In this document: positions 3,906 through 35,994 of the stretch, piece after piece
Layout: every line of letters starts with the position of its first letter
How positions within the stretch are numbered: the first letter of the stretch is position 1
Assembly (NCBI GenBank): GCA_038049695.1
Contig: CP142456.1
Coordinates: forward strand, 74,175,422 to 74,239,421
Length of the DNA stretch: 64,000 bases
Direction of reading: 5' to 3'
From: Cinnamomum chago
Taxonomy: Eukaryota > Streptophyta > Magnoliopsida > Laurales > Lauraceae
Made by a program: the position numbers and the translations under genes
Notes under the pieces: generated by a model
The model's input: the letters and a program-made list of their open reading frames with translations, nothing else
Database searches by the model: none
Told to the model about the DNA's origin: nothing

Positions 3906-6321
3906 GGTAATATCAATGATCTTCAGGTTTGGCTGAAGCAGTAAATTGGAAACATGTGCTTATCAGTTATCACAATAACATCAATGAGGTACTTCGATAG
4001 GAGAAAAGACAACAGAAGATAATATTGATGATGCTTGTGATAAAAAAAAAATGAGCTTTCAAACAGGTTACATTTTTTCCTGCATAAAAGAATTAAGTAA
4101 AAGATTCAGGCACATATCCCATGATCTAGCTCAATACATAGTTTTTATAATGATAATATCAATCAAATAATTTTAATAGGAGAGAAGACGGCTGCAGATA
4201 GGATTGATGATGTGGGGAAAAAAAATCCTGCGCATAATGTTTTTGTTCCTGCTAAGTTTAAGCTAAAGATCTAGGCACATAATGCCTGATCTAACTCAAG
4301 AAACAGACTTTGTCCTTTGCACATTTACCCTTAACCTTATAATCAGCTTCTAGAATCCAAGGGGATTCATCAGAAAGAAGAAAACACAATTGGAGTACTG
4401 GACGACTCACAATAAAGAAATAGCAAATTCTACAAAATAAATTTTGCCAGCCAAAAAGTCTTTATCCTTAACAACCAACGTGACTGACGGGAGTTCAAAG
4501 ATGAGTTGACACTTGACACCACATAAGCAAAACCTCCAAGTAACAACCAAAATCCATTGTCAGGGTTTTTCTCTTTTTTGAGGCATGAGTTCTATCTATA
4601 TCACACAAAAAACAGTGCTGCAACTAATTAAGACCTGCAGGAGTGAAGCTAATAAAAGAAGTGAAGATCATATTGCCAATAACTCAATTTGGAAGTGCAT
4701 CCACATAAAATTGACTAGCACCATTAACATCCCAACTAGCCACCACTGAAATCCATGCCTACAATATCCCACTGAATGACTCTGATTATCTTGCTCTTCA
4801 ACAAACCAGTATAGCAAAAATTCAGACATTGATGCTATATCTAAGTGTTGCAGCAGCATGTGAGTTGAATATTAATATTGAGCGACCAATAAAAACAATA
4901 TTATTAATATTGAGCAATGAGCAGACAATGAAACCATAACCTTGTCAAATTAAACATAACACCATCCTGTAAAGGAGAACTCCATGTAGCAAAACAATAC
5001 TTTAAAGCCATTGTGAAATAGGGAACATGGAGTAAGGCTAGGAAAAAAAAAACAACGGTTTTTATATATAAGTTCCTAAAATCCAAAAGATAAAAAAAGG
5101 AGACTGATTTCATTTTCACTCCAAAAACAAAACCCACCCAAGAAACACCAAAAAGAATCGTCGCAGTGACTTGTATGGGGCTAGAAATGACCTGATATTC
5201 CCATTTCTACAGTCAAACACATGATAATACACCCCAATACCTAAATACAGAAACCAACATAACAATATTGACTGCCCATTTCTTTTTAACAAAATATAGA
5301 ATTAAACAGAAAAGGTCCCACACTTTCCCAATTAAAGAGGCAATATAACAGAATCAGCTCTTTTGGTTGCACCAGTTGCCAAAATCAGCTATAATGCTAA
5401 TGGTGAACAAAACTGCCCCAGAGAGAGAGAGAGAGAGAGAGAGAAAACAAGAGCTTTTACCAGTTCCACAATTCTTGTGAAATGTAAAATTGATTGGTAA
5501 GTTGCAGAAGCAAAAGGAGTAAGACTGCAGAGGAGGGTTGAACGCTTACCTGTGGGTTGCTTGGATGGCTGTTGGAAAGACACTCCAGAAGCTGAAGAAG
5601 AAGAAATTAGACCCAAATTAATAACCCTCAAACCCCCCCAAAAAATTGCTAAAACAAAAACAACAAATCCATTTCCTTCCTTTTTAACCAAGAAGCCATG
5701 CTCACCTAAAATCTTAAACAATCAAGACAAATGCCTAGCTACATCGCCATAAATTTTAACAAGCATGATATATTTAAATAAAACATTTTAAAAAACAACA
5801 TTATTATACATAACTAAAGTTATAGTACCCCATCTCCTATCAAAATGAAAAAAAAAAATTTATGGGGCTCATACAAGAGGAGGCATTTATATTAGATAGT
5901 TTAGAATTTTAGCAGATGGGTCTCATTGTAGATCCTCGCAAGTTCTCCTATGAGTTGCAGCATGAGAAGAAATGATTGCATCAGTAACAATACATAGCAC
6001 ACACCTATTGAAAAACCTATTGCCCATTTTGTTACCTCAAAATTGATTGCACACTAAGGGGCCTTTTGAAAACTATAGTCTAATTTAATAAGAGAAAAAT
6101 GGATTAAGATCTAAAATAAAAACTTTAACTTTCAAGTTTTAATGTACAATTAGTCTATTTGATAAGATTATTAAATAAATAAATAAATAAACCTTATCTC
6201 GCAGAGATTTAGTTCCAACAAGAACTTTGATAAATGGTTTCAAGTATTGAAAGAAAGCAATCAGCAAGAGTTTGTCCAACAGCTACATAAGGTACATGAT
6301 TTGATTTCTACTTTAGTGAGT

Positions 6322-6352
<31 letters not shown>

Positions 6353-7239
6353 GGGGGGGGGGGGGGAGAAGAACCCTAGTACCTACGGGAGAGACAACAG
6401 TGTTGGTGGTGTTGATGGCGGACAACAGGCAACGCAGCGAGAGAGATAGGGGCGAGAGTGGCTCATCAAGAGAGGAAGAGCAGCGGAGGAGATGGGAAGT
6501 GTTTTGGGTAAAACAGCCTCCATCACTAGTTTTCTTAAGATGTTAAAAACCAGATGCTTTTAATTAAATGATGAATACATATGTATACCGGCCACTCTAA
6601 TTTATAAATAAAATTGTAGAATCCAAAATAAAAGCTTGTTTTTTTTTTTTTTTTTCAAATGGGCCCTAATTCCAAACAATGTCTTTCTACTAAGGGTCTA
6701 AATTTTAAAAGATAAAATAAAATTTACCATCAACATAGCAAATTTGTGACGAATGACTCAAACTCACAAGGAGTCCATGAGTCTTCATAATGTGGCTTCT
6801 CTGTGCAAAAAAAACTAAATCACTCGTAATAACAATATGAACTCTGAGCCCAGTGATACTGGCCCAGAGTTCATATTATTCACTGGCCATGCTCATAATG
6901 CATGTCACATAAATTGATAAACTCGACGGTATCTTGCGAAGAGTGTATGTCATATAAATTGATAAATCCCATGATATTATAGGACCGTCCCTTGACGTCA
7001 TGGCTTTTATGTAACATCTTAGGGGAAAAAACCCAAGATATAATAATTAGATGTGTATTTACTTTTAACAAAATGTCATTTTTTGTATTCCATAAAAAAT
7101 AATTTTATTCTCTGGCAGTAAAAAGTGTATGATATAAATATTGATAAATTACACAATAGGGTGTAACATGAAAAAGTTTAAAGAAAAATAATATCGACCA
7201 GAATTAAGCTGGTGATATCATATAAATTTGACAAATTCC
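3906..7239. other. Upstream flank of the PPR gene; AT-rich, simple repeats, no clear gene
   Basis: Holds a GA microsatellite near 5420-5443 and a GA tract running into a 25-base G run at 6342-6366. There is also a short hairpin at 6837-6879 and several diverged copies of a motif like tcatataaattgataaa between 6900 and 7230. A minus-strand splice-donor-like CAG|GTAAGC near 5545-5550 could belong to a 5' UTR exon of the PPR gene, but this is not demonstrated. Confidence 0.4.
6320..6366. repeat. GA microsatellite fused to a 25-base poly-G run
   Basis: An (AG)n tract from about 6320 is followed directly by 25 uninterrupted G from 6342 to 6366. Long poly-G is rare in plant DNA. It can form G-quadruplexes and is prone to length error in sequencing. 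Confidence 0.95.
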
Positions 7240-16215: not shown

Positions 16216-17476
16216 ACTTAATTATGCTTGCGGGGACAAAATTCTTGTTGTTAATAGTGATTGTTCATGCATCCGCCGCGGAAGTGAAATCCGGTGTCTT
16301 TTCATGTAACAACTCAATTCCCGCGGACCACGTTGGATTCCAACATTGGATTCCACTTTCTTTGCTCCAGCCGAAAAGCAACATGTTTTTTAACATTTTG
16401 TCTCCAAAATCTCGTTGCACCAAATGAAAGGATAGGGGTGAGAGTGGAAAAGCTAATCAGGTTAACATCTCTTTTGCAAAAACCTAGTTGCACAAATGAA
16501 TCCTTAAAGGCTTAGAGCTTTGGTATTGCCTCTCTTCGGTCTGCGTGGATTGTTGTTTCAATTGGAGAGATAATTAAACTGCTCATTTATGCCCCTCCCA
16601 TAGAAAATCAAGATCCTGCCAATCAAGGAAAATCACTTCATTTTTTCCAATTTTCACAAGGAAAATGAGTTTCCCCGTGGGCTTGATGAAAAGTCTGAAT
16701 AATTTTCCTCTTTATCAAGGAAACCTCTCATGGTACAAACACTGCTAGAAATTTCCTATTTTCCTTCGAATGACGGATGACCAACCTCTTACGGCTGTCA
16801 TCATGAAATTCTTTGAACAAGATGCTATTTGATATAAATCCATCCCCGGAGCCTATATTTAAAATAAAAAACATTATTTCCTCTTGCATTTGCTCTCGGT
16901 TAGTGTTTCATTATCTGTTAGCAAGTTGACTTTTTTTAATTTTAATCATGTATTTTACTAAATGAATTTCATGATAGGCCCTCAAGTTTAACTGAAATAT
17001 AATTGTCCCAAAGTTAAACAAGGGTAGACATTGATTTTGAGAGACTTAGATTTTAAATATGACCTCCCGTGAAGGATTTGTAGTTGGACTTGGAATTCTC
17101 ATAGGCCGGTCCCTGGAGAATCCAGGTTCTATTACCTTACGAGGTACTGTGTCCATTGTCACAAATAGTGATCCCCAAGATTCTATAAATATATCTACTG
17201 TAGCTGTGTAGGTCTACCCTATTTAGTCATTCTACAAAGAAATGGGCCTAACCCTTTCAACCCCACCAATATGATAAGTAGTGAATTTCAACGATGTAGG
17301 TTTAAAGAAAAAGAAGCTTACTGTTAAATCTAAGTACTTCCAAAATTTGATTTGATTTTGAAGCTTCAAGCTGATGATCTTTGAAAATATGGAAACTATT
17401 ATGTAACTTAAAATGCCATTAAATTTGTGGCATGTCGGCAGTGGCGGACTTACATGTAATGGGCTGGGGGCTGAAG

Positions 17477-17631
17477 CCCCCTCCTAATTGGAGAAAAGCC
17501 CATAAGGGCCCTATGGGCCCTTAAGCCCAGCCCCAGTTAGAAATGGCCCAAGTCCCCTCCTAATTGGAGAAAAGCCCATAAGGGCCCTATGAGCCCTTAA
17601 GCCCAGCCCCCAGTTAGAAATGGCCCAAGTC
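17477..17631. repeat. Tandem duplication, 2 x 77 bp, inside the hAT element
   Basis: Both units read cccctcctaattggagaaaa, then cccataagggccctatg, and end gttagaaatggcccaagt. They differ at only a few positions, so the duplication is young relative to the surrounding repeats. Confidence 0.85.
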
Positions 17632-17783
17632 CCCAGTCGGCCAGTCCCCTTTATTTCCCTTACCACTTTAACCTAAAAACAGTAAACCCTTTTCTCTTTC
17701 TCTGTTTCTCATCTCTTTCCTTCCCCCTCTCAAAAATCCTCATCTCAGGACTCAGGCTACTGGGCCCTGACTGCCTCATTGAT

Positions 17784-17925
17784 GCCAGATTAGCGCAAGG
17801 AATTGCAGCGCCCAAATGCAAAGGGGCCGATTTCTCCAAATTGATTGCTCAGGCGAAGGAAGATGCTCGTTCTCGCATTGACCCAGATCAGGATTTCTTC
17901 GGTTCCGTCAACGATGTTTTCAGTG
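17784..17925 (+). pseudogene. Possible captured host exon inside the hAT element
   Basis: An open stretch of about 47 codons ends in a good splice donor (cagtg|gtaattc). It encodes a soluble-looking, codon-like peptide with ADFSKLIAQAKEDARSR followed by IDPDQDFFGSVNDVFSG. GC content is higher than its surroundings, and a CT-rich leader precedes it. I do not recognise the parent gene. It lies between the hAT left end and the CACTA insertion, so it is a transduplicated fragment or a leader exon of the element. Confidence 0.4.
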
Positions 17926-18679
17926 GTAATTCAACTGATTGAGTGTATTTGGTTGAGAAGAAGTGGAAAATGATTTACTAGGAAAAGTGGGATTTTTGGA
18001 TTATGTTTGTTTGGTTTGATCTGCACCACATTGATGAAATTGAAAGCTGAAATCTTTCATTTCATTCCAGTTTCTGTTGTATTGTTTGGTGTGGCAGAAC
18101 ACTTTCTGGAGTGAAATGTGCTGCCTTTTTTGGTGTTACACTACAGGAAATGGTTTTCTACCACTTGGGTCTGAATGTGCTTTCCGAGAAAATTTGTGGA
18201 AAATGCTTTCATTTGGAAAATGAAACCTGCAGAAAATGTTAGTGGGGAATGATGGGAAATTGTTATCCAGTGGAAACCTATTCTCAGTGCTATTCTTTCT
18301 TTCTTTCTTTTTTTGTTGTTGTTTTGAGGTTTAGATAGTTACCATTATGTTAAATTGTTGATGCATCTTTACATTTGAGCATGACAATACTTACTGCTAA
18401 CTCATCCACTGCACATGTGAGATGTGGCAGGCACCAGTCCATATTGTTCAAATTCTAGTTTATTTTATAATGAGTAAAACCTAACAATCATAACCATCAG
18501 ATTTGCTTGTCTATATTGAAAAAGATATATTTAATAGCATTGACGATGAGACAATCATGCGAAGGTTTCAAAACATGAAGAATCGTCGAGGGCAATTGTA
18601 AAAGCTTTGTTTGAGGGTTTTTTGTTTTTTTTTTCTAAAGAAAATCTTTTGTAATTAGGTGATCACACTACAACAGAAG

Positions 18680-19350
18680 ACAGTTTTAGCGACGTTTTAT
18701 TTCGTCGGTAAAAGTCAAAAAAACGTCGGTAAAGTTTTTACCGACGTTTTTTATTTCGTCGGTCAGACGTCGGTAACATCACGTCAAGAAAACCCGTTAC
18801 CGACGAATTAATTTTCCGTCGGCAAAAATATAATTTTCACCGACGTTTTTATGTATTTTACCGACGTTTTTTTTCGTCGGTAAAAGTAAAAAGGAAAATT
18901 ATAATTAAATTACAACACTTTGCCGACGTTATTTTTTCGTCGGTAAAAATAAAAAGAAAATAAATAAAAAAATAAAAACTATTTCACCGACGTTTATTTT
19001 TCGTCGGTAATATTAAATAGAAATATTAAAGATATAAAAAATATTTTACCGACGTTTTATTTTCGTCGGTAAAATCAAAAGGAATAAATAAAAATTAAAA
19101 TAAAATATTGACCGACGTTTATTTATCGTCGGGAACATTAAAAAGAAAACATAAAAAAATAAAAATATTTTACCGACGTTTTATTTTCGTCGGTAAAATA
19201 CAATGGAATAAATAAAAATAAATTACCGACGTTTTTTTTCGTCGGTAAATAGAAATTAAAAAATATAAAACAATTGCCGACGTTTATTTTTCGTCGGTGA
19301 GAATGAATTTTACCGACGAAATTATAAATTTCGTCGGTAAAAAGTTTTTT
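18680..19350. repeat. CACTA subterminal repeat array, left end
   Basis: About a dozen units of the form taccgacgtttt-(few A/T)-cgtcggtaaa, each a small hairpin, are separated by 30-60 bases of A/T-rich spacer. In En/Spm elements such subterminal motifs bind the TNPA protein and are needed for excision. The array matches the one at the other end. Confidence 0.9.
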
Positions 19351-19994
19351 TTTTTTTTAAAATACAATTCCTGTTTTTCGTTTAAAATTTCCCTACACCT
19401 GTAATACACCTGTAACAGGAAATTAAACCTACTCATCCAAACAAAATCATCCACAAACCTACTCACAATACAATTAATAATGAATCCAAACAAAATCATC
19501 CACAAACACACAATTAATAATGAATCCAAACAAAATCATCCACAAACATACAATTAATAATGAATCCAAACAAAACATACAATTAATAATGAATCCAAAC
19601 AAAATCATCCACATTTTTCATCAAATCATTCATCTCCTAAAAATAACAGTACAATTAATAAAAATTTCTAATAGTTGAATAAAATTGTCCAATATACATA
19701 AACAAATAAACTAAAAACAACAAAACTACGCCAAAGTGTGCATCCGATCCAAAAGCGTCCATCAATCTGCAATGACAAAAACAAAAACAAAAACAAAATT
19801 AGTATCTTTTGAATTAATGAATTTATAAATAAAAGATATACCTATATATATATAAACTGATTGGATCATCCCCAATAAAAAACTGAAACTTCTGTTTGGA
19901 TCCAAAGAGTTGAGGTTTCACATCATTCAAAGAACAAAAGATAAGAAAAGAAAATAAAATAAAAAGAAAATGAAATCTAGAACTGCATTAACCC

Positions 19995-20207
19995 TTACTC
20001 AATCAGTTGGTGCTGTACGCTGACTGGAACCTCATTACTAGCACCACATAGAACCACCTCTATAATCCCATGATATAGAAATCCAACAGTGCCATGAATC
20101 TGAAGCTTTGTTATATCAATGCCTACAAAAACAAAAGCCACAACCACCCTAAAAAGACATAAATAGCAGCAAAACTTTTTTTTGTGTGTGTGTGTGTGTG
20201 ATAGCAA
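19995..20207 (-). pseudogene. Unidentified captured coding fragment
   Basis: The minus strand from about 20125 to 19997 reads VGIDITKLQIHGTVGFLYHG, then IIEVVLCGASNEVPVSVQHQLIE and a stop. Its codon use and amino-acid mix look like a real protein tail. It lies just beyond the last captured IspH exon, in the same orientation, but does not match the next part of IspH. I do not recognise the source gene. A (GT)n/(CA)n microsatellite borders it. Confidence 0.35.
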
Positions 20208-20401
20208 TAAAACTTCTGAAATAATTTAAGATTGCAAGTTACTTGTGCATGCCAATCTTTAAGATACATTTGACAAGGCAACCCCCCCCCCCAACAAGCA
20301 TCCAATCTATTAGTGCATTCAAAAGCTTATTTGCTCCTACTATACTAAGCATGTTCTGTGGTTGGGCACTGCATCTCTGACTGCATCACATAAACGCGTA
20401 C

Positions 20402-21015
20402 CTCCATAAACTCTTCTTTCGTTGAACTAGATCCGTCAAGTTTACCTCCAAGAATGTAATCACATACATACATTGCCTGGTTCATTTTGGAAATGTAGAA
20501 CATATAATGTTAATGATAAAAGTTACATTGCTGATGCAAATCATTACACATGACAAAAGTAACCAAAAAGGACAAAGTGCAAGATCATACCTCTGCCATG
20601 TTCTTAACAATAATATACTTCCCTGCAAAAGATGCAGTTGCAACTGTCTCTTCATGAGAATATTTACCATGAATTATTGACGTGTACTCCCCCTTCTTGT
20701 GTTTCTCAACAGTGTTCCAGACCTTTACACAAAAATTTGGGGCAGAGAAAAATAAAATGAATGGTAGATCAAATTAACAATAAGGCCAGCAATTAACATA
20801 ATCCAATAATTCATTCTGACTTCTGAATATAGTACCTTAGACACCCATGGGCAAGTTGTATCAACTATTTGTACGTTCTTTTCGCTCAAAGTCAACATCT
20901 CTTCCACAGCAGCTCCAAAAGCAGGTAAAATCACAACATCATCCTTCTCAACAACATCAAATTGTTTCTTCCCATCCTCAATTGGAATATTCTTGACGTC
21001 CATCTCTTCTAATCT
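20402..21015 (-). pseudogene. ispH: Captured IspH/HDR fragment: three consecutive exons with introns
   Basis: Three minus-strand exons keep plant IspH (4-hydroxy-3-methylbut-2-enyl diphosphate reductase, last step of the plastid MEP isoprenoid pathway) in frame. 21015-20836 includes [20 protein letters not shown] and the iron-sulfur Cys motif [10 protein letters not shown]. 20722-20591 includes [20 protein letters not shown]. 20476-20402 includes [15 protein letters not shown]. Every junction has intact GT-AG sites and keeps phase, so genomic DNA and not cDNA was captured. The N-terminal half with the plastid signal and the C-terminal third are absent, so no functional enzyme can be made. It lies in the 3' part of the CACTA. 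Confidence 0.88.
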
Positions 21016-21358
21016 CTACAACAGAAAACAAATGGGATAATATTTTTTTTTTCATCAAAAGTCAAAATCAATGTGAAAAAACATGGTCGGCAAAGATCCT
21101 TTTAGATATTTAAACTTTCACTTACGTACATGTAAATTAGAATGACATTTAACTGTGAAAATCTACACTAGCATCATATAAGGAATTTTCAATTTAACAT
21201 AGTCCATGACAGATCTATTCCCATATGATGGCGATCACTGAAGTCCACTCCTATTACTCTCTAGCACAAAAATCTAACTCCATCTATCATTGTTAATTAT
21301 CTGATGCAAGGCAGTGAAATACTCATAACAAAAGGAGGGTGTCCTCTAGTAAACCTTG

Positions 21359-21405
21359 GAGCCATGGTTTAAAATCACGGTAGCGGTCACCATCGTGGTC
21401 AACCC
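21359..21405 (+). repeat. Terminus of a palindromic-element family, fragment
   Basis: ccatggtttaaaatcacggtagcggtcaccatcg resembles the left end of the 993-bp element at 48683 (catggtttaaaatctcggtctcggtcg). This suggests a truncated relative nested in the CACTA. Confidence 0.4.
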
Positions 21406-23347
21406 TAAAAACCAAATGGTTTGTGAGAGAAAGATGGGGAAAGAAATAAAAGTTGCACTGAACAAAAATTAATCCATTCGTGTCTTTAGCAATAATGCAC
21501 AGCAGACAAGACATTTAATGCAGGTGAAGTGGAAGATGACAGTTCTCACTTTTGGTGTTCCCTGCCACACAACCAATCCTATCTTAGAAAAAGAAAGAAA
21601 AAAAAAACAACCTCCTGATGCTGAGAATCAAGAATTTATTGGACAAGGTTTCACAAGCATTTGGGGTTTCTATATACAGTACAAATTTCACTTGGAAATA
21701 CCCTTTTCACACAGACCCAAACGTTTGTACCACTGGATTTCTGTCCAGCCCCTGGTGCTCATGAATCAGACCAGCCTGAGACTCAGTAGCTCAGAGTTGC
21801 CAAAATAAAGCTCGATAGGGGCTGTGATTTTAGTCTAGTGGGCTGAACCCAAATCTAATTGCTGAAACAGGTCAGACTGGGCTTATATATGCCTAGATGG
21901 TCGGCCCTGTCCAACATTTTCCCCACAAACTGTGTGGTGGTTTTACAAATGGGCTGGATGTAGGCCTGACTTTCTGGTCTTTGAGCTAAACCCAAACTTG
22001 AGTAATAGGCCTGACAGCAAAATGGAACAGCCTTGCTGGCCCATGTACATCCCTAGCACTACTACAGACTGATGCATTTTGGATGTCAGGATCCCAACTC
22101 TTTGAACACACTTGCGCCTGTTTGTTTCATGTTTTTGAATTCTTAGTATTCTAAGAACTTGTATTTGTACAAGTGGTTGAAAATGTAAAATCAAAGGTGA
22201 GTATCTAAAAATGACCATCAAATACAAACAGACCATCAAATAAAAACCTACACACGATTGCAATCACTGGCTGATAATACTTTGAACAAAAAAAATGTAT
22301 AGATGAGTTGGTTAAGACACCACCCCTCATTTAAGTTAAGACTTCATTAACTATCAAAATGATAGAAAAAATCCTATAAAAGATAATACTTTGAACTAGA
22401 AATGGTACCATTGAAAAGCCAAGTGAAATGGAGTTAAATCAACTAAAACATGTTCATTACAAGCCCTCTTCATAAAGGTGTGCATTTGACATTTTTTAGG
22501 AAGTACATTTTATAGTCCCAATTGGTGAAATCCAAAAGTCAAAGAGGCCAAAACATTTAAACCAGAAAATAGAATCAAAAGCAGGAATGTTGCAGAGAAT
22601 CTCATAAATTCATTAATTGAAACTAAATATATCAAAAGGACCCTCCATAGTTTTATGTCAGTTCAAACTAATCAAACCCAAGTTATTGGGCTTGGCAGGC
22701 GAGTCTAATTTCTAGCCATCTAATAAAACATATTTGAAAAGTAAGAGTTTCTGATTTGATATTTATATTGCTATGGCTGTACATGAATGGCCGGTAGTGA
22801 CCAAAAGAACCGAACATGATCTTGTATCAGGACAATGCTAATGCATGGATTTTAGGTCCCCCTTTTCTTTGAAAGACCAAGTCAAGCTATTGTTCCATAC
22901 AATTCCTACACTATTGACAGTTATGAATAGAAGAATATCAAACAGTAACAGAAACTGTTTGACCTGAAAGAAAGAAAGTTCCAAATGATGGAGGGACTAG
23001 GTTTCAGATATCAAAAACATGAGGTGGTGATATAGCAAAAAGAAATCACTTTATCCTTGCCATGACTTTACTAGCTAAAAAGTGGAGCTGCCCAGAGGAG
23101 GGCAAGGTGAGAGGTCTACAAGCTAATTGTATAAAGTTGGATTGCCTGCATCCTCTAACTCAGTAAATGCTGCACATTAGCACCCCCTCCTTGGACATGT
23201 GCTTCTAACCGGTGTATCTGTAGCCATCTCATCAGTTGATATGGTTTGTATTTTTATTTGGAGCATCAAAAGACCTGGGGTTTGTAAATTTCGACTAGTT
23301 ATTATGTGCAAATTTCAAGGGAGTATTCTACTAACCAAAGAGTCGCA

Positions 23348-25231
23348 TCATAATCCTCCAGGAGCCGTGCCATCCCCAGCAGATGTGGTCCCCCCCGTGG
23401 TGTCAAGAAAGGCGGCCGGATCTATTCCTGCTACAGCTGCCAGCCTTTGAACAAAGGCCTCAAGCTGGCGTGTCCTCCGGTCCTGCTCAGCCTGCCTCCG
23501 GTCCTGCTCAGCTAGCTGCTCAGCCTGCCTCCTGCCTTGCTCAACCTGCTCGGCTAGCTGCTCGCGCAGGGCGACCACCTCAGGGTCCGGTGCCCGAGAC
23601 TGTGTGGAAGAGGAAGAGGTCCTTGAGTATATCCCATACCCCTTTACGTAGCCCGACCTCTTCCCAAGCACATCAGCAGCAATCTGCTCCTCAGTCATCG
23701 GAGTGGTGACAGAGGGCTGCGACTGCTCCTCAGTCCGCTGCACCAAGGCCTCCTGCCATTTAAAAAAATAAAGGATTTAGAATACTTCTATGACATTATG
23801 CAATCATAAACCATTTATTAGGAAACGTACATGTCTCTGTTGCGCCACCTCATTTACCCACTCATTACGAGATCGTCTGTAGTGGGTGTCGCGGAAGAAC
23901 TGAGTAATGGGCGGCGCTTGACCGGCATTCTGTGCCGCCTATCATTTGAAAAAGATTTATATTAGATATGAACCCTGCAACATATTTAGAAATTGATAAA
24001 CTTAATAAAGTTTCTTCATATGAATATAATTAGTACCATCAGAGACATCCTCGAGGCAAATGACCGGGAGCCACTCGTATGATTGTATGGCAACTGAGCT
24101 CGACTCTCTTGCGCTTTCTTTGACTTTGCCTACATAGAAAAACAATAATACAATAAAATCCATTAAAAAATCGTTACTAATAGAATTACATTGGAATATA
24201 ATTAGTCGTTGTAGATAACATCCCAAGGTCACCTTCCAGGCTGGTGATTCCCAGCACTGTGAGATCATCTGCTGCCAGTCAGCTAAAGTACAACCCTCTG
24301 CCGGGTGGTCCTGGGGTCGGGGAACCCTCTGCTCCAAGAGCTCGAGATAGTGGGTATGCAGCTCATACTTCCAACCCCTATACAAGATCCCGCATTGGCG
24401 GTCAATGTCCGCCCTAAGCTGCATATCACCCTCGTAATCTCCGATCTCAAAGAGTTGCTGCAATTAGGGGATAACCATATTAGTCACTAGTAATAACAAA
24501 ATATAATCAGATATTGTAATGAGGAGCACAACTGTAACAACTTTGGTTGATGTTTATCGTTTCAGTTTACCTTAACTGCAGCGATGACGGCAAGCTTGAT
24601 CCCGGAGTCAAGCTTCTTCCAGCCATGAGGCCTAACTGGGGCAACCTCTCTAATGGCTAACCCAAGATGGTTAGCCAGTGATGGGGCATGTTCCCCCTCT
24701 GGCCTATGACTGGAGCTGGGGATCGGGACTGGGATGTTATGACCCAGTTGTCTCCTCAGCTTCGTTGCATTCTTCCCCCGCGTGACACCCCTTACGCGGC
24801 TCGGAGCACCCGAAGCTGAGGCTGATGCTGCTAAGACGACAATGCTAAATGAGTTAGTGAGCACAAATGATAATTGAGGTGATCAAATCAGAAGAAAAGA
24901 AGTTAAAGAGCACAAATATAAATTGAGAGGAACCATTATACAGTTTAAAAGGTTTTCCGATTTTCTCACCGACGCTGCTCCCGATCGTATGAGGACTCGC
25001 GGGTGGCTGGGAGGGCTGGGCCTGGGTCTGCGAGGGCTGCTCTATCAAGGGCTGAATCGGCAGAGGCTGGGGGGCTGCCGATTCAGGGGTGGTCCCTGAT
25101 CCTCCGGCCCGTGTAACATCGAGTGCAGCTGGCGTAGGCTGCGTCGAGGGCTCTCGTGTGCTCTCCACAGGAGCTAACCCGAGTGCAGCTGCGACCTGCC
25201 GAGCACGTTTCGCCCTATTTTCCCGAGGCAT
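23348..25231 (-). CDS. TNPA-like CACTA protein (Transposase_24, Ptta/En/Spm type)
   Basis: Six minus-strand exons join in frame at GT-AG sites: 25231-24970, 24830-24571, 24457-24233, 24129-24037, 23938-23831 and 23752-23348. Together they give 450 residues. The Pro/Gln-rich N terminus is followed by a conserved basic segment (RGVTRGKNATKLRRQLG), then ADWQQMISQCWESPAWK, the HTSGSRSFASRM motif, and DVLGKRSGYVKGYG. A Gln/Arg-rich coiled coil (EQLAEQVEQGRRQAEQLAEQ) ends the protein. This order is typical of the plant Ptta/En/Spm Transposase_24 family. The protein is thought to bind the subterminal repeats and bring the element ends together. No frame lesion is seen. It follows the transposase gene in the same direction. 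Confidence 0.85.
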
Positions 25232-25343
25232 ATCTGCAATCTGACTTAAAGCAAAGTGACAAGGAAAATAAATAATTATTAACAACAATAAATAATATTC
25301 GCAACGTGAATATAAGCAAAGTGACCATGTCATTATGTAAGAA

Positions 25344-26160
25344 AATATATTTATTAATTTACTTAATCGTTACATGTGCAAAACCTGAAATTTAATGTCG
25401 ACCTCGATCTCTTCTAGCATTTCTCCTAATTCCCTCAAGTCTAGGAAATTAATCTTGAGTTTAGCATGAATTTCTTGTACCGGCCAAGGAGGTGGTAGAG
25501 TGCTTACTATTGAACGCACCAGATCTGCAATATTTGGTTCAAATCCTCTTCTTTTGAGATCGTAAAACAATTGCTCCTTGTTTAGCAAATGTTCTCTAAC
25601 AGATATTCCTTCAGCCATTTTCTCTCTCCGGAACTGTATCCATAAGGGATGAATACATTTTTCAAATGACTGTAATAGGTTGACGAACTCCACTGCATGC
25701 CATGGTCGTAAGACTTCAAATATCCTCATTTTTGCAGCATCCCAAGCCCGTGGCAATGTTTCAGCAATTTTTATCATTATATATCTTTCAGGGATGAAAT
25801 TGCCACACAGTCTCAGCCACTGAGCCAGTTGAATTTTGCGGGAACCATGCTTTGCTATTGGAGTTTCATTTTCAAATGATTTATGTTCAAACTCATTTGT
25901 CCATTCCCTAACACGTTGAGAGTCTTTGCCACGACAGTATTTGAGATGTGTATTCATATGTTCTGTGTTAGAGTTGAAAAATTGAATCGTTTCAATTTTA
26001 ATTTAAAGGAAAGCAACAACGGATAAATCAAACATGAACATAATATAACAAGCTAGGTAATAACATAGCACACAGCATATATAACAATTGAATGAAATTA
26101 AGCATACTTTTTATAAGAAAAGTTCTTTATTAATTTACTTAATCATTACATGTGCAAATT
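25344..26160. repeat. Direct repeats of about 50 bp flanking the extra CACTA ORF
   Basis: 25340-25382 and 26113-26157 share tttattaatttacttaatc, then one mismatch (g/a), then ttacatgtgcaaa, preceded by a similar taagaaaa. The right copy lies in the 3' UTR of the transposase gene. The pair brackets the ORF at 25370-25957 and suggests insertion or duplication of that block. Confidence 0.6.
25370..25957 (-). CDS. Extra CACTA ORF, weak retrotransposon-gag resemblance
   Basis: A single open frame of 195 codons starts at an ATG and runs between the transposase and the TNPA-like gene, on the same strand. It is hydrophilic and largely helical. The segment GISVREHLLNKEQLFYDLKR followed by IVSTLPPPW resembles the pattern of the copia-type gag region (UBN2: an SVREH helix, then L..LP.S/PW). 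The typical zinc knuckle is absent. This is not a standard part of En/Spm elements. It could be a captured gag fragment, a captured host domain, or a diverged element gene. The family assignment is weak; the open frame itself is clear. Confidence 0.45.
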   Translation of the reverse strand: MNTHLKYCRGKDSQRVREWTNEFEHKSFENETPIAKHGSRKIQLAQWLRLCGNFIPERYIMIKIAETLPRAWDAAKMRIFEVLRPWHAVEFVNLLQSFEKCIHPLWIQFRREKMAEGISVREHLLNKEQLFYDLKRRGFEPNIADLVRSIVSTLPPPWPVQEIHAKLKINFLDLRELGEMLEEIEVDIKFQVLHM

Positions 26161-26171
26161 AAAAGTAAACA

Positions 26172-29100
26172 CTACATGTCATATTCCATGTCATCATCTT
26201 CCTGACTATGACCATCACTCCCTTCATCATCTTCGTATTCCGCCAGCGTTTCATCCTCGTCTTGGCCATCCTCTGATGCTGACTCATCACTGAGAACGAT
26301 CTCATGATCTATATCATCCCTAGAGTATTGGTCACTAGTACCATCGACGAGGACTGGGACAACAAATGCCGTTTCGTCCTGCTGAAATGCATCAACCGGC
26401 ACATCATCATCATCACCGTCGTCATCCCGCTTAGCGGGTACATCCCATACTCCCCGAGTCTTGACCCGTTCTACAACTCTCCAATTTTTTCCTCTGCTGG
26501 TGTCATTGACGTAGAAGACTTGTTTCACCTGACTTGGTAGGACAAATGGATCATCCTTACACCACCGACCCGTGATATCAATGCTTGTAAGATGGTCTTC
26601 GATGTTTATCTTGTGCTTGGTACTAGTGTTGTACCATTCACATTCAAATAAGACCACCTTACCCCCGTGCCGATAGGACAATTCCCAGACTTTGCAGAGG
26701 TAGCCATAGTAGTCATGTTTCACCCCTTCGTATTCCCCTTCCACGACCAAGCCGCTACTCTGGCTCCTACGACATTTCTCACGGTCTACAGTGTGGTATC
26801 GGACGCAATTGCAATCACACCCCTGGTAAAGATTCACTAGGGATCTGGGGCCATTTGCTAATGACCACATCTCATCAAAAGCTTCTGGTGACCCTATAGT
26901 TCGCAATTGATTCATCTACATAAGCATATTAAGACAAATGTATTAGACTGATGTTATTTGAAGCTTATACTCAAATAATATCAAACTATTAAAATGATAA
27001 TATTTTATGTCTTACACGTTGTTTGAACCATTCTGCAAATTCTTTTCGTTGTATCTGCCCGATGTCTCCACCTCTTTGGTCTTGAACTAAATTCCTGTGT
27101 TCCCTACTCAAGATAGCTTTTAATGAATAAGTACGAATAGAGAATGAATAAATGAGTTAACAAGCAAAACATAAATATGGCTAGATTGAAGCACATACTG
27201 TAGATACGGCTCCACTTCGGGGCAATTATTCAGCACAAACCAATGAGCCATGTCACGCTCCCTTTGAGAAGGATCATGTGCCCTTTGCATCAGCCCGATG
27301 GGACGGACAGTTTGTGTGAAGATTGACATCCCCGCACCCCGTTCGCCACCATCGTCATAACGCTCTACTTGATCAGTCTGCCTTAAATACATTGAGCAAA
27401 AAGTGAGACACTCTTTGACAATGTAAGCCTCGGCGATTGAACCTTCAGGTCGTGCTCTGTTGCGAACGTACCCCTTTAGTGTCTTCAGAAACCTTTAAAC
27501 AACAAATGATAACTATTACGATTTCCAATGCAAGGCAATTGCACTAATATATAAATAATTTTTCGATGGTCATCAACTATTACCTTTCAATCGGGTACAT
27601 CCACCGATATTGCACCGGTCCACCAAGAATGGCCTCGCGCGGCAAGTGAACCGATAGATGAACCATCACATCAAAGAAAGCAGGAGGAAATATCCTCTCA
27701 AGCTTGCACAATATTAAAACTATCTGCTCCTCCAATTTTTTCAAATCGTCGTGTCTCTGTGTTTTCGAGCAGAGGTCTTGGAAAAAGCTACCTAACTCAA
27801 ACAATGTTGTACAAATATCCTTATTCACAAAGCCACGCATGCCAATAGGAAGGATCCGTTGGATAAGGATGTGGCAATCATGGCTCTTTAAACCAGCCAA
27901 TTTATCATTTTTCGAGGTTACACACCTCGAGAGGTTCGCGGCATAGCCGTCTGGGTATTTGATCGACTTCAAGAATTCATAAAATTCATCTCTGTCTTTT
28001 GGTGCCAGAGTGTAAGAGGCATGCGGCTTCAAGCTGGATCCATCGCCCCTCTCCACTAAATGCAACTCTGGCCTGATGCCCATATTTTTCAAATCCTTAC
28101 GCGCTTTATCGGTGTCCTTGTTTTTGCCCTTTATGCCCAACATTGTTCCAACCAAGGCTACACAGATGTTCTTCTCAATGTGCATAGGATCAAGGTTGTG
28201 TCGGAGTTTTTTGCACTTCCAGTAGGGCCATTCAAATAGGATGCTTTTCTTTGTCCAATTCAACTCTCCAGACTCACGCGGTCTTTTGTTATTCTTGCCA
28301 AACCTGACCGGATGTAGTTCTTCGAGCTGGTCTAGTACCTTTTGCCCCGGTAGATCCAAAGACCCCTTTTCACGCTCAGGCTGACCGTTGAAGGCCTTGC
28401 TTCTACGCCATTGGTGGTTTACTTCCAAGTATTTTCGATGGCCAATGTACCCAATCTTATCTTTCAACCTCACCCCTAACGAGGTGTCGTTACACGAGGG
28501 GCATGCGTTATAACCTTTTGTACTCCACCCAGATAAGTTACCATACGCAGGAAAGTCATTTATCGTCCACATCACAGCCGCATGCATTTGAAAGGTTTGT
28601 TTAGTGGAGGCATCATAAGTAGATACACCATGATCCCACAACTCCTTCAACTCATCAACCAAGGGCCTCAGATATACATCGATATCGTTTCCCGGTGAGT
28701 TTGGTCCTGGAATAAGTAATGACATCATCATGAATGGCTCCTTCATGCACATCCATGGTGGCAAATTATAGGGCATAAGTATGACAGGCCACATGCTATA
28801 AGAGGTGCTCATGTTACCAAAAGGATTAAATCCATCAGTGGCTAACCCCAACCTCACATTACGTGTCTCTTGGGAAAACTCTGGATATTTCTCATCAAAT
28901 TCTTTCCATTCCACTGAATCAGCCGGATGCCGCGCTATCCCATCGTCAACGCGCTTATCACTATGCCATCTCATCTCTGTGGCTGTCTTCCTTGACATAT
29001 ACAATCTGCGTAATCTCGGTATCAATGGGAAGTAACGGAGCACCTTATGCGGGATCTTCTTTCGCTTGCCATCATTGATCTTGTACCTAGGCTCTTCACA

Positions 29101-29772
29101 TTCTGGACATTTTTCCAATTGAGCATTCTCCTTCCAATACAACACACAATTGTGTTTGCAGGCATCTATGTTCTTGTATCCCATGCCCAAGTCACGCAAT
29201 AATTTCTTCGCCTCGTAAATTGATGCCGGCACCACATGACCTTCGGGTAAGAAGTCCTTAAAAATCTGCAGGACCTTGTCGAACGACTTATTGCTACACC
29301 CACTTTCTACCTTCACGTGGAGTATCTTGATGACAAACGATAACAGAGTATCTGAGCTTTTGCATCCTGGGTAAAGGCCTCGCTGAGAAGCATTCAACAA
29401 ATTTTCAAAATCATCCCTCTCTTGAGTATCTTCCTCCAAGTAAGTTCCCCTACGATGATCATCTATCAACTCATTGTACCCATCTTGATTATCTTCTGAT
29501 TCATCATCGCTCTCATCCGAATCATCGGGTTGAACTATGGGTTCCCCGTGATATATCCACCGTAGATAATGGACCATCATTCCTTTAATGTGCAGATGAC
29601 TTCTCACGGTTACATAGTCATGCTTCCGATGGTTACAACAATCGTTACACGGGCAGTTAATCAACACTGCCCCGCCCGAATTCGCCTTTGCAAAATCAAT
29701 AAATGAGTTTACCCCAGCTATGTACTCCGCACTAAATCGGTTCCGATAATGTAATATCCAACTCCTGTCCAT
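26172..29772 (-). CDS. TNP2-like CACTA transposase (four exons)
   Basis: Exons read as 29772-27584, 27492-27199, 27116-27016 and 26915-26172. The protein starts MDRSW with the Transposase-associated domain (Cys/His pattern NCPCNDCCNHR, near residues 40-50). It continues with the TNP2 catalytic domain, including LATDGFNPFG at about residue 310 and the NDIDVYLRPLVDEL segment. Then follow the DUF4218 region ending QYRWMYPIER and the DUF4216 C-terminal domain with a long acidic tail. It is the catalytic transposase that cuts the element ends. The first and last junctions join in frame. The middle one (27199/27116) does not join in frame at the canonical sites I can find, so there may be a one-base lesion or a non-canonical splice. 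Confidence 0.85.
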
Positions 29773-29859
29773 ATCTGACCAAATCACAAGTAATTAGCAA
29801 TTAGAAATAGAATCCACTCGCCTATATTGAATAAATTGAATGTGTTTATGAGGTCCAGC

Positions 29860-30150
29860 TCATTGGGCCTGCTCCAATCATCTTTTCCGATGGAGATACA
29901 TCTTTGCCGTCCATGTGTAGAAAGAGGATGGTAATACTTTGGCAAAGCCAGGTATTGCAAGGCAATTTAATTTTGGAAACAGGATCAGCTTGCCATGGAA
30001 TAGGTCTATTTGGAAACAGGATCCATATTGCATCTTTTTGCGACAAGTATCAAACGTCAAAAGATGAATTGAAGAAGACAATGGAGAAAGCTAACAATTT
30101 AATTGTTGACATTTTGAAGAAAAAACCACAATTAAAGTGCTTTTGATAGT
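29860..30150 (+). pseudogene. Unidentified coding-like fragment upstream of the CACTA transposase
   Basis: The plus strand encodes a short peptide whose tail reads [20 protein letters not shown] and ends in a Lys-rich stretch with a stop near 30146. It contains the 15-base text tttggaaacaggatc twice (about 29974 and 30007). It runs opposite to the transposase genes and may be another captured fragment. I do not recognise it. Confidence 0.3.
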
Positions 30151-30866
30151 ATTTTTTTATGTTATGTATTTTTTTTTTCAGTGTTTTTTTATTTAATATA
30201 TAAATAATTTTTTTTAGAAATGGGACTTTAAAGAGTCCTACTCATAATAGAAAGTGTTCTTCAAGATAGAGAGAGAAGTTAGGGAGATTTTCAAAATTAG
30301 GAGGGGCCAATGTAATGCCAATCCATTACATTACTTGTAAGTATCTTTATGCAGAGTACATACAGAGAGTCTTATGAGGAAAAGTCTTTCCTATTACTAG
30401 GAGTCTAGGATGCTCTAGCTAGAATTTTGGAGCAAGTATTCCAAACTAAGAAGCTCTTCATTATTAGAGATTCTTAAAAAAAAGAAGAACCTTTAAAAAT
30501 AATAAATCTATGAATTTGGAGAGAATTAATCCCCACTGATTCAAATTTGGAGAACATTTGTATATATGACATTTATGTAAATCTTATGTGATAGGCAAAC
30601 AACCCTTAAGGACCTGTGAAGCAATAATCCTTGGAATCAAAACACAGTTAGTCTTGGAAATTGATCCAAATGGATATATCATGAATTAATAGTGGTTAAT
30701 TATTTGAAACTGATGTTACTAGAATAAATCCATGATATATCCAGGAGGGTTATTCAACTTATTTCTGTATAAAACATGGTGTTACCAATCTGTTTTCCAG
30801 TGAAAAAAAGGGTATTATAAGCAAATGGTTGAAATTCTCAAAACAAATTGATTTATTTACATTCAA

Positions 30867-31714
30867 ATTAGGAACATGCAACATTATTTGATCTCTGTTG
30901 CTCAAAGCCAGACCATAACCAGGAAACCTAATCTAGAGTCTCACTAAATGTGGGTCTGTTACATGGTGCCTCCTACTGTCACTAGGATTCCTCTTATGGC
31001 GCTTCATCACCTACAAATCCATAATATCCAATTTTCAACATTAGAGCACTAAAATCAAATTTATTTAGAGGATAGAATGGTGGAAATTCAGTTGCCTGCG
31101 ATTGGTCTGAATAACCAAAAAATGATCACTAGATCTAGTCTGGGTTAAGGAAATCTGTTTCAAAACACTATTAAGAGTAAATTTTTAGACTTCATAAACC
31201 AGGTGATATGAAACAGCAGAATGGAGAATGAACGGCTCAAGGCTAAAGTCATATTATTTGACAGGGTACAATAACTTCCACCTAAAGGGTTTCTGGTCTT
31301 GCAAATTAATCTTCAGGCCAAAACTAAGGTTCTGATAAGTGATAAGAACAATAATAACATTTGACACATGGTTAATGATTAACAAGTCTGTAGCAACAAA
31401 CCAATTGATTTTCACAGCTTACAGAGAATAACCTCCACCAGCCTTTGGTTTAAATCTATCTTCATACTCTATAGTTGGGGTTTCTGGTCTATAGCAAATC
31501 TTTAGGCCAACCCTAGATTGAGAACACTAAGATGATAATGTCGTTAATGCCAATGATCAGAATGGCAAATTGTTGTAGAATATGACCAAATGCACAAGAT
31601 ACTCAAAAGGGTTTCTTGAAACAACATCCGAATCTAAGTAGTTCTATTTTCTAGATTGCAAATCCTTGCTCAAATGGAAAATACAGAGATCAAATAATGT
31701 TGCATGTTCCTAAT
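30867..31714. mobile_element. 848-bp segment bounded by a perfect 32-bp inverted repeat, nested in the CACTA
   Basis: 30867-30898 and 31683-31714 are exact inverted copies starting attaggaacatgcaacatta. The interior has diverged repeats, for example gggtttctggtct...caggcca at about 31288 and ggggtttctggtct...taggcca at 31477. No coding capacity is seen. No clear target duplication was found, so it could be a MITE or an inverted duplication. Confidence 0.55.
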
Positions 31715-32319
31715 ACCTGAAAATCATACTTGATCAGTCTGCCTTAAATACATTGATGAAAACCAGCAAGTTATGAGGCCCATTGTTGAGTTTCTCACAT
31801 GTTTTACATAAAGATTAACTTTCTTTTGTTAGTTTTTTTCCAAGAGAATTAACATGCATGTGATCTAACCCTAGTCACTTGACTCAGCAACCTATATTGA
31901 ACCGAATCTGGATTTTCAGGAGCTTGACAAAGTGGAACAAGCAGATGAACAGACCAGGTATTTGTGTATGCCTCTTATAATTTACTTTCACAATGAACAG
32001 ACCCACATGTATGTATATAGATGAACAGACCAGGCTTGAGCCTGGAATCAAAGTTTCTGAAAAAAAAGGGGAAAAACGATAACGATGCACTAAAGTATGG
32101 AGAAAAACAACAATCAATGGAAGAAGAAGATTTAGAAAAACAGAGAGCAGTTGCAGCAGATTTAGAAAAAAAAAAAGGGGAAAAACAATGGAAGAAGAAG
32201 AAGAAACCGTGTACCTGGCACCGGAGAAAGCGTGGTTGGGGCCTGGGCTCCGACTGGGCGTGGCACCGGCGACTGGTGAGTGGCGATCTGTTGGCAAGTG
32301 TGGTGATGGCTTCGCTGGA

Positions 32320-32353
32320 CCTTGAGCAGAGTGAGAGAGAGAGTGAGAGAGAG

Positions 32354-32385
<32 letters not shown>

Positions 32386-32443
32386 CAGATCGAGAGCGAG
32401 AGAGAGAGAGAGATAATGTGCAGATCGAGAGAGCGAGAGCGAT

Positions 32444-32475
<32 letters not shown>

Positions 32476-32670
32476 AGCAGAGAGAGAGAGAGAGACAGAG
32501 CAGAGCGAGAGAGAGCAGAGAGCGAGCGAGAGCGAGAGCGAGATCGAGTGAGGGAGCGAGAGAGAGAGATCGCAGTGAGGGAAAAAGAGGGGAAAAAAGA
32601 GTGAGGGAAAAAGAGGGAAAAGAGGGAAAAGAGAAGAAGAGAGAGAGAGAGAGAGCAGCGTCCGGTGCAG
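32320..32670. repeat. GA-rich low-complexity tract in the CACTA 5' region
   Basis: Long runs of (ga)n with interspersed gagc and gaga units are followed by a 29-bp tandem duplication (gatttgggcgattcacgcgg... at 32733-32790). It lies upstream of the transposase in its transcriptional sense and may be promoter or leader sequence. The long open frames through it on both strands are low-complexity artefacts. Confidence 0.8.
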
Positions 32671-32984
32671 GGGAGGCGTCCGGCGGGCGTCCGGGGGCTG
32701 CTGCAGTGGTCGTGCTCCTGGGACTGGCGATTTGGGCGATTCACGCGGAGTGAGGGAGGGAGATTTGGGCGATTCACGCGGAGTGAGGGAAAAGAGGGAT
32801 TGGAGAAGAAAAGGGGCGATTCGCGCGACTTCCGGTGGTGGGAGAGACAGCGAGCGAGGGAGAGAGAAAGAGATCGACAAAGGGCGGGAGAGGGTTTTGG
32901 CGCAGCGGGAGTGAGAGGAGTGAAAAGAGAGTTAGGGAAAAGAGAGGAAAAACAGGGGCTTTGGCGCGGGGGAGGGAAAAAAAA

Positions 32985-33535
32985 GGCGTTTACCGACGTT
33001 AAAAATTCGTCTCCAAAAGCAAAAAAAACGTCGGTAACATCTTTATTAATTTTTTTAAAAACGTTTATAATTTTTGCCGACCTTTCTAAAACGTCGGTAA
33101 AATTAATAAAACGTCGGTAAATATTAATTTTACCGACGTTTTTTAAAACGTCGGTAAAATGTTTTCAAATTTTTTTCCTTTTATACGAAAATAGTTTTCA
33201 TTTTACCGACGAAAATAAAACGTCGGTAAAAGTGGTATTTACCGACGTTCTTGAAGAAAACGTCGGCCAATATGATTTTTACCGACGTTTTTAAAACGTC
33301 GGTAAAAGTTTTACAAATTGTTTACTTTTTATTACCGACGAAATTTATAACGTCGGCAAAATTGTAGTTTACCGACGTTTCCAATAAAATACGTCGGTAA
33401 AAATTAACTTTTACCGACGAATTTTTTAAACGTCGGCGAAAGTTCACTATTTACCGACGAATTTAAAAAACGTCACTAAAAATATACTTTTACCGACGAA
33501 TTTTAAAAACGTGGCTAAAAAACGTCGCTAAAAGT
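32985..33535. repeat. CACTA subterminal repeat array, right end
   Basis: About fifteen motifs of ttaccgacg and cgtcggtaaa alternate as hairpins, mirroring the left array. The last units change to cgtcactaaa and cgtcgctaaa near the end, as the left end also does with agcgacg. Confidence 0.9.
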
Positions 33536-35994
33536 GCAACTTCTTGTAGTGTCAACTGATCATGACTTTTGATGATAGAATGTTAGTTGATCATGTAATT
33601 CGATATTTTGTAAATGCAAGACATTTTCTCTTTTGCAAAAGTTAATGTTAAGAAATACCAACAAAATATCAATTGACTTTTTCAAGTGACTATCTTAAGC
33701 CCCCACCAAGTCAAAATCCTGGGTCCGCCACTGCATGTCAGAGGCCCACAATAGAAGAGATCATTTTAAATTATCTATCCACAAAAAGAAAAAAATCAAA
33801 TAAAATTAGCGTTTTAACTTCTTTTTTTTAATTTCGACATCAATTTCAAATTTTTAATTTTGATGGTTAATAATATAGTAAAGCATGTATACAGACTTCA
33901 TAGATGGTCAATCCGCACCCTCCTCTTGCATCTTGTTGAGTCCAATGGTCCCCTAAAAGGCTCTGGTTTTCTGATAGTGTTGCATCTTCATTGCATTTCT
34001 CTACTTAAAAAATATCAAAAGTGTCATGATATATATTTTAACCATTGGCAAAACTAAAATTTTTGATAGAAAAACTTGACAAGTACAATAATAATAATAA
34101 TAATTTGTATATGTTTTGTAATTATTTATTATCTTAATCACTTCTAAAGTTAGTTTAGTCTATGAAAGTTCTCAAAAACATTCTAAGAAACCCAAAAATC
34201 TAAAGAATGTCCCCCTCTTTTCCTTAAAAGGATAATTTTCAAATGATTATGGTTTTGGTGACACGCACATCATCTATGTGGGGTGGATAGGATAAGCTGT
34301 CACTACTTAATTAGTCATTAGATTGAAATTGACAGATGCTTATGAGTGTTTTGTTGAGGGGTGGATTTTTGATGTTACATTCCTCATAAAAATCATGCTT
34401 AGCCATATATGATTAGGTTGGACAGAGGACTATCGATCTATTTATGTCTTAATATTCCGTGGCGTAGAACCACTGCGATGCGAGTCTTCCACAATTTAAA
34501 GAAAAAAAAAGTTTTTCTTGGCTCCTCCGCTACACTAGTACGGTGGCAACTAGCGGTGGATTAGGGTTTTCATTTGAAGGGGGCAAACCAAATAGGTAGT
34601 TGAATTTTGGGGGCAAATTTAGAATTTCCTTGTGGAGATTTTGGGGAACAGATCTGAGATTCTCTTGTGAATTTTTGCAAGCAATTCAAACTTTTTCATA
34701 TGAACTTTGAAAGTAGATTCAGGTCCAACGGGGGCATACATATAGGTCCGCCCATGGGCGGGCTCCTATGAGTAGACAACATACAATTCATAAGTGGTAC
34801 GTCTAGATAACTAATTTAACCACTTCAATTAGGGTTAACTTTTTTCTTTTTAATGATAAGGGCTTCCCCGTAGTATTTAACCCAACAGGACTATTTTTCT
34901 GGGCAAACGCACGGACTCCACACACATGTGCGCCTGATAAGTATAGAGCAAGACTCGAGCACACGACATGGGGAGGAAGCCTGCTCACCCAACTCCCAAG
35001 TGGGTATCAATTAGCGTTACCTAGATCACTATTTCACCATATAATTGGTGATTAGAGTCACAACAACCCAAATGATAGTTTGATTTTTATGGATGATAAA
35101 ATTAAATGATCAACACAATTTTGGTTTATGATTCATTTTTCCAATGGGCTAAGATTCTGTTAGATTGTGAACAAATTTTACATGATCGAGTATCAAAATT
35201 GAAATTCAAATTTAAGTAGGACACGGGCTAATTATGGAATGGCTTGAAATATTATATCTAAAATTTGGCCACACTTGTCAATTAAAGGAGAAAAAAGAAT
35301 TGTCGTATCCATGTAATTTATAAATATATGATTTGCTCATCCTAACCATTAGTGATACAGGAACATTGACAAGAAGAAAGTGACAACCTGCAAATTAGAA
35401 ACACTCATGCTGAGAATTATCTACCGTCCTATGCACTTCACGTTTTTTTTTTTGTCAATATCCGAAATTGTTATTTACTATTTAAGGTTTTAATATGTAA
35501 AAACATTATAGCTAAAAAAATATTATATTTGAGCTTCAAAAACAAATGAAATTTTTCTAAAATGACCATCAAATTATCTACACTTTAATGGAAAATGGAC
35601 CAAGCAGAGGTACAAAATGAATACCCAACCATTATCAAAGTAATTTGAATCCTAGGAAAGTGAGGGTTACATATACCTCGGCACCTTATATCAAGACCCT
35701 TTGATATGCAATGTTCAGTTGTTTACTAGCAGTTCAAGCTTTTGGTATTTTTATTTGTTAAGATGGTATTAAGGCCAAGGGCTAGAAGCCGTGTGTTCAA
35801 ATTCCCAGTACGTGTTTCTGTTGGTGTGGGTCATTTGACGTGTTTCTATGTACATGCAAAGCCCAACACGTGAAAAATCACTTTTAGCAAAAATTATAAA
35901 TTTCAAAATATCCTAAATATTTTGGAAGTTCCACTAAAAGAAAGCATTGAAAACCATAGGTCCAAATGCTTGAAATCAAACATGCACTCACACC

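Follow-up and report, generated by a model that had tools for sequence, protein, structure and literature searches.

The window, by which we mean the whole 64,000-nucleotide stretch of Cinnamomum chago DNA analysed here, contains a complete CACTA element whose coding sense runs on the minus strand (Table 1). Its ends, CACTACAACA...TTGTAGTG, were read directly and are common to the nine other IspH-bearing copies described below. Many ACCGACG/CGTCGGT motifs lie near both ends in both orientations, a subterminal repeat pattern that was likewise read directly and is uncounted against chance. Termini of the form CACTA...TAGTG and a 3-bp TSD, both found in all ten IspH-bearing copies, together with a TNP2-type transposase, place the element in the CACTA (En/Spm) superfamily. 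The CACTA element itself seems to be inserted in a small element spanning 17439-33733, which we take to be hAT-like: inverted ends CAGTGGCGGAC/GTCCGCCACTG, read directly, surround it and are flanked by the near-identical 8-mers CATGTCGG/CATGTCAG. Elsewhere in the window, an open frame encoding a 751-aa PPR protein (1704-3959, minus strand; Pfam PPR_2, 8.8e-21) is apparently an ordinary host gene.

Table 1 Positions of the CACTA element, its genes and its captured pieces in the window
Feature	Position	Strand	Details
Complete CACTA element	18666-33551	- (coding sense)	14,886 bp; 5' end 33551, 3' end 18666
Left TSD	18663-18665	.	TCA, read directly
Right TSD	33552-33554	.	TCA, read directly
TNP2 transposase gene	26172-29772	-	our 4-exon model, 1,104 aa, open
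TNP2 exons	27584-29772, 27199-27492, 27016-27103, 26172-26915	-	our model
195-aa ORF	25370-25957	-	weak copia gag-type match, Pfam Retrotran_gag_2 9.3e-7
Second gene, TNP1 position	23348-25231	-	our 6-exon model, 449 aa, open
Remaining IspH piece	20206-21451	-	three donor-matching blocks
IspH block	21413-21451	-	donor L009:4644-4682, 100%
IspH block	20291-21414	-	donor L009:5203-6334, 97.6%
IspH block	20206-20292	-	donor L009:6559-6645, 93.1%
IspH exon 3	20836-21013	-	178 bp, captured
IspH exon 4	20591-20722	-	132 bp, captured
IspH exon 5	20402-20476	-	75 bp, captured
Second genomic piece	21464-22236	-	773 bp, 93.3% to C2:73.24 Mb (L046:2518-3268)
Third genomic piece, 5' slot	30896-31732	-	837 bp, 96.4% to C1:121.864 Mb (L047:537-1362)

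The element carries two transposase-type genes. TNP2 matches the Pfam families Transposase_21 (2.2e-100), DUF4218, Transpos_assoc and DUF4216. The second gene, which we liken to TNP1/TnpA, gave no Pfam family for the three of its exon-bearing ORFs that were scanned. Judged by the open frames under our splice models, the element is potentially autonomous. Between the two genes lies a 195-aa ORF that is open in all nine IspH-bearing copies having it and is possibly another acquired gene. The 5' subterminal part of the element also holds a 426-aa open frame (31884-33164, minus strand) without a Pfam match.

The IspH piece lies about 1.9 kb past the stop codon of the second gene (23348) and holds three exons of IspH, at 20402-21013 on the minus strand (positions by hand count). 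The original prediction had described consecutive IspH exons at 20402-21015 that keep frame, phase and GT-AG sites and lie in the sense direction of the element. Alignment to the donor gene and protein profiles confirmed this description: the exons are in phase, the frame is open, AG/GT borders are present, the span agrees to within 2 bases, and the orientation is that of both transposase-type genes. Joined, the exons encode a 129-aa peptide that matches Pfam LYTB (2.6e-22, profile positions 47-139 of 267) and the NCBIfam IspH model NF009911 (1.7e-55, positions 103-219 of 405). The peptide covers exons 3-5 only, about 29% of the IspH protein, and is not a complete reductase with three Fe-S cysteines; the first and third conserved Fe-S cysteine regions are, as we presume from their positions, absent from the captured piece and present in the donor.

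A search of the 1.06-Gb assembly (14 contigs) for the donor, as the original prediction had proposed, identified an IspH gene at C11:49.4711-49.4768 Mb (locus L009). Its coding sequence is uninterrupted and encodes a 457-aa protein under our splice model, residues 1-278 of which match solved IspH structures (3dnf, 1.8e-15). Because the main block aligns to this one gene over 1,132 columns, introns included, at 97.6% identity, a chance match is excluded. The sole exonic difference between donor and window is a synonymous ACT to ACG change in exon 4. Retention of the introns means that DNA, not cDNA, was captured, as predicted, and rules out a retro-copy. The only other IspH-like locus that we met (L027, C1:109482000-109491900, around C1:109.487 Mb) was rejected as the donor, its exons having only 66-82% DNA identity and, by eye, having lost conserved motifs; it looks like a decayed IspH duplicate. 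The 1,124-bp core of the piece begins with 53 bp that match dispersed short repeats at 84-94%. They do not represent a repeat of the element: the same stretch and its surroundings are present in the donor intron, and it therefore arrived with the gene.

When the genome was searched with the 1,124-bp core and all 22 candidates were scored, the donor and at least ten copies of the element, on eight contigs, were obtained; these counts are lower bounds. Both CACTA ends and identical flanking 3-mers were found in all ten (TGA, TCC, CAT, ATA, ATG, GCT, CTC, ACT, TAT and ATA). The possibility that the CACTA borders exclude the IspH piece in other copies was checked and did not hold, each of the ten elements including it between ends with a perfect TSD; the cargo therefore transposes with the element. 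The copies measure 13.8-16.1 kb, apart from a 5.1-kb deletion derivative (C7:59.78 Mb). Five of them, from the window, C12, C3 and two places on C4, form group A and differ pairwise by only 0.04-0.22%, so their transposition must be very recent. Group B comprises the copies on C5, C7 (63.30 Mb) and C10 (0.43-0.46% pairwise); the C8 copy stands apart from the groups, and the C7:59.78 copy is 1.3-1.4% from group B. Both transposase-type genes are open in five of the ten (window, C7:63.30, C12, C3 and C4:88.55). In the other five, one or both are disrupted by a stop, a frameshift or a deletion, and only the C7:59.78 copy lacks both. Comparison of TNP2 among the window, C7:63.30 and C8 copies gave dN/dS values of 0.31-0.76, with few changes.

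An independent IspH gene, or a duplication that came to be nested inside the CACTA element by chance, would account for the intact frame and splice sites of the window copy. The original prediction had named a complete, independent gene as the outcome that would overturn it, and this was not borne out: exons 3-5 alone are present, the full-length gene sits on C11, and on eight contigs the same piece recurs within ten elements that each have a TSD of their own. We regard this explanation as next to impossible. Instead, a CACTA element almost certainly copied about 2.0 kb of the host IspH gene as genomic DNA and then transposed with it, two steps that sequence comparison shows.

The source of the cargo had thus been predicted correctly and its extent too narrowly. 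Pooled over the copies, the captured span runs from the interior of intron 2 to the interior of intron 5 of the donor (L009:4644-6645, or C11:49472143-49474144), contiguous genomic DNA of about 2.0 kb, of which the window copy keeps about 1.25 kb. Group A retains donor positions 4644-4682, 5203 to about 6334 and about 6559 to 6645 (this joint falls within a G run, which blurs its exact position), the C8 copy 4644-4979 and 5129-6645, group B 4794-6645, and the C7:59.78 copy 5337-6645. The right edge, donor position 6645, is common to all ten copies, and the left edge to group A and C8. Apart from the G-run joint, the readable deletion joints have 2-3 nt of shared sequence.

The IspH piece is not the only cargo. 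At least two further genomic pieces lie in the window element, matching C2 and C1, and the inner end of the one matching C1 adjoins a 32-bp inverted copy (30867-30898) of a stretch near the start of that piece. When the second gene was used to search for the wider family, 40 of 434 candidate places were listed, nine of them IspH-bearing copies. Among the other 31 listed places, we examined the 3' regions of ten (L033-L042). Three of these are elements bearing a P450 gene piece, whose DNA was read for the 3' parts; the remaining seven (L036-L042) carry other 3' sequence past the second gene's stop codon, and in some of them units of about 172 and 57 bp are tandemly repeated. Among the elements examined, none was a pre-capture form of the same 3' module, and the original insertion joint is therefore unreadable.

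Three related elements lack IspH (C11:20.39, C3:5.17 and C4:51.64 Mb). As listed, these P450-bearing elements are 100% identical to the second-gene query. They are 99.57% identical to window 21522-22683 but lack window 22683-23214, and about 905 bp of different DNA replaces window 19991-21522; at the 3' end, identity to the window element is only 89-90%. The replacement is an antisense piece of a P450 gene (Pfam p450, 2.7e-7; isoflavone synthase structure 8e83, 5.1e-5; no NCBIfam match), and it aligns at 97.46% over 907 columns to its donor, a P450 gene at C9:68.4549-68.4558 Mb. Of the 773-bp C2-type piece, 716 columns are common to group A and the P450-bearing elements, whereas the C1-type piece in the 5' slot of group A is absent from the latter. 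Their 5' slot, like that of group B, holds a shared piece matching C5:71.59 Mb (98%), and that of the C8 copy a 523-bp piece with 98% identity to C4:17.105 Mb. The C8-type 5' slot recurs at three further places (98-99%); one of these three, at C1:113.00 Mb, has no IspH in the part of its 3' region that was examined. The C1, C2, C4 and C5 loci would be the donors, each being the single other strongly matching locus, a direction of copying that we infer; no gene could be named for these four pieces from ORF listings.

Slot contents thus differ across subfamilies: the family has two cargo slots, one 3' and one 5', and what they hold appears to have been replaced and reassorted. The pattern of sharing suggests an order for these replacements: as group A, group B and C8 have the same right boundary, loss of IspH in the P450-bearing lineage is the simplest order, though not a proved one.

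The IspH piece lies between the second gene and the 3' subterminal repeats, where it was probably inserted by aberrant repair after excision in which DNA synthesis switched to an unrelated template. In later copies, parts of the piece were lost by deletion, the readable joints having 2-3 nt in common; in one related lineage it was probably replaced by the P450 piece, and recombination between subfamilies probably reassorted the 5' and 3' modules. The 32-bp inverted stretch, which is what a template-switching polymerase could leave, and the short shared sequences at the joints fit template switching or end-joining. A review describes another proposed route for Pack-CACTA elements, in the part of its text available, in which neighbouring insertions form hybrid elements with aberrant excision (PMC13317346), and our observations cannot choose between the two routes. 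To judge from what the sequence shows, the IspH piece is passive cargo. Transcription running through the element would be expected to include it in the RNA, in sense, as putative 3' exons or as a 3' UTR, and it could then give rise to small RNAs that match IspH.

Where four or more copies cover a site, fixed differences between donor and element number 28 at 1,350 noncoding sites, a few of them adjoining a poly-G run, and one at 385 exonic sites. The dating by intron divergence that the original prediction had suggested, with a noncoding difference of 2.1% and substitution rates of 2e-9 to 6.5e-9 per site and year, would place the capture at about 1.6-5 million years ago as an upper bound. 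The group A copies are far younger than the capture.

The scarcity of exonic changes extends to the copies themselves. Across donor positions 5337-6330, the span covered by all ten copies, none of the exon columns (385 bp) and eight of the noncoding columns (about 609 bp) are changed (p ~0.02; hand count and hand arithmetic, column 5583 left out). Dropping a column beside a poly-A run leaves seven noncoding changes versus no exonic ones (p ~0.03). A raw script count (28 noncoding, 0 exonic, p 8.9e-4) was set aside owing to poly-G/poly-A alignment artefacts and uneven coverage. The captured exons are open in all ten copies, one of which has lost a splice donor. This conservation is suggestive only, a hint rather than a finding.

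Most probably, a single capture in the ancestor of groups A and B and the C8 copy was followed by neutral drift, with the exon-intron difference reflecting chance and allelic divergence of the donor before capture. The right boundary common to ten copies, the left boundary common to group A and C8, and the low overall divergence are consistent with this history, although pre-capture divergence does not explain the depletion of exonic changes among the copies. Alternatively, the exons may have been kept because they are useful to the element, as coding or splice-active exons of a transcript of the element or as a shield, since silencing RNAs aimed at the element would strike the IspH mRNA too. 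The absence of exonic change, the frames open in every copy and the excess of noncoding over exonic fixed differences would agree with such a role, and the camouflage idea is already in print (PMC13317346, section 11, and PMC8978399, in the portions available). We nevertheless consider a useful role unlikely: the numbers are small and weaken without the column next to the poly-A run, a splice donor is gone from one copy, the P450-bearing relatives manage without IspH, and many of the fixed differences may have arisen before the capture, while both sequences were under constraint. In plants, IspH is an essential gene. In a still bolder and quite improbable version, the exons would be under selection to stay identical to the host IspH mRNA, because small-RNA silencing of the element would harm plastid isoprenoid synthesis; the cargo would be a hostage shielding the mobile element, and the slot would be rewritten as the arms race proceeds.

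The original prediction called the element a Pack-CACTA that still carries transposase genes. The transposase genes are there and, as in a Pack-CACTA, captured host coding DNA lies between CACTA ends; the strict name does not apply, because both transposase-type genes are open in the window element, while Pack-TYPE elements, Pack-CACTA among them, are defined as non-autonomous in the passages available (PMC8903248). CACTA elements that have transposase genes and have captured host gene sequence are already described in the literature. The excerpts of the grapevine study at hand describe Cactavine-5, a CACTA family with two copies in which a fragment of a host PPR gene follows the transposase ORF, a placement like that found here, and its family table gives two elements with potentially functional ORFs, which may or may not be the PPR-bearing copies (PMC2528002). 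There the piece lies in the opposite orientation, and only two copies have it, whereas here it is in sense, keeps its introns and is found in ten copies flanked by TSDs, the slot being taken by another gene in related elements. The grapevine Hatvine-6 elements similarly combine a shared transposase and ends with a variable region of differing genic or non-genic sequence, but belong to hAT rather than CACTA (PMC2528002, same excerpts).

Chenopodium CACTA-like elements likewise have coding regions together with captured gene fragments, and their authors note capture-prone regions and the camouflage idea; according to the available passages those fragments lie in the 5' region, whereas here IspH or P450 occupies the 3' slot and further genomic pieces the 5' slot (PMC8978399). 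Soybean Tgm-Express1 resembles the present element in holding intronic and exonic parts of host genes, and its captured exons are spliced into chimeric transcripts; it is 5.7 kb long with five gene fragments, in contrast to 14.9 kb with transposase genes here, and the portion of its text available contains no mention of a transposase (PMC1947982). A literature search pairing CACTA with hydroxymethylbutenyl diphosphate reductase found nothing, and CACTA with IspH matched a single grapevine genome paper.

The IspH-bearing CACTA is therefore a well-resolved, clear example of something already known, unusual in the details of how its cargo is swapped. One genome shows the donor of the piece, its boundaries, the deletions that followed, ten copies between TSDs and, in related elements, a second gene in the slot; five of the IspH-bearing elements have open transposase genes, and eight copies fall into two groups with within-group differences of 0.04-0.46%. 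This makes the family well suited to asking by what steps capture occurs, and whether pieces taken from an important gene affect the silencing of the element or of the gene.
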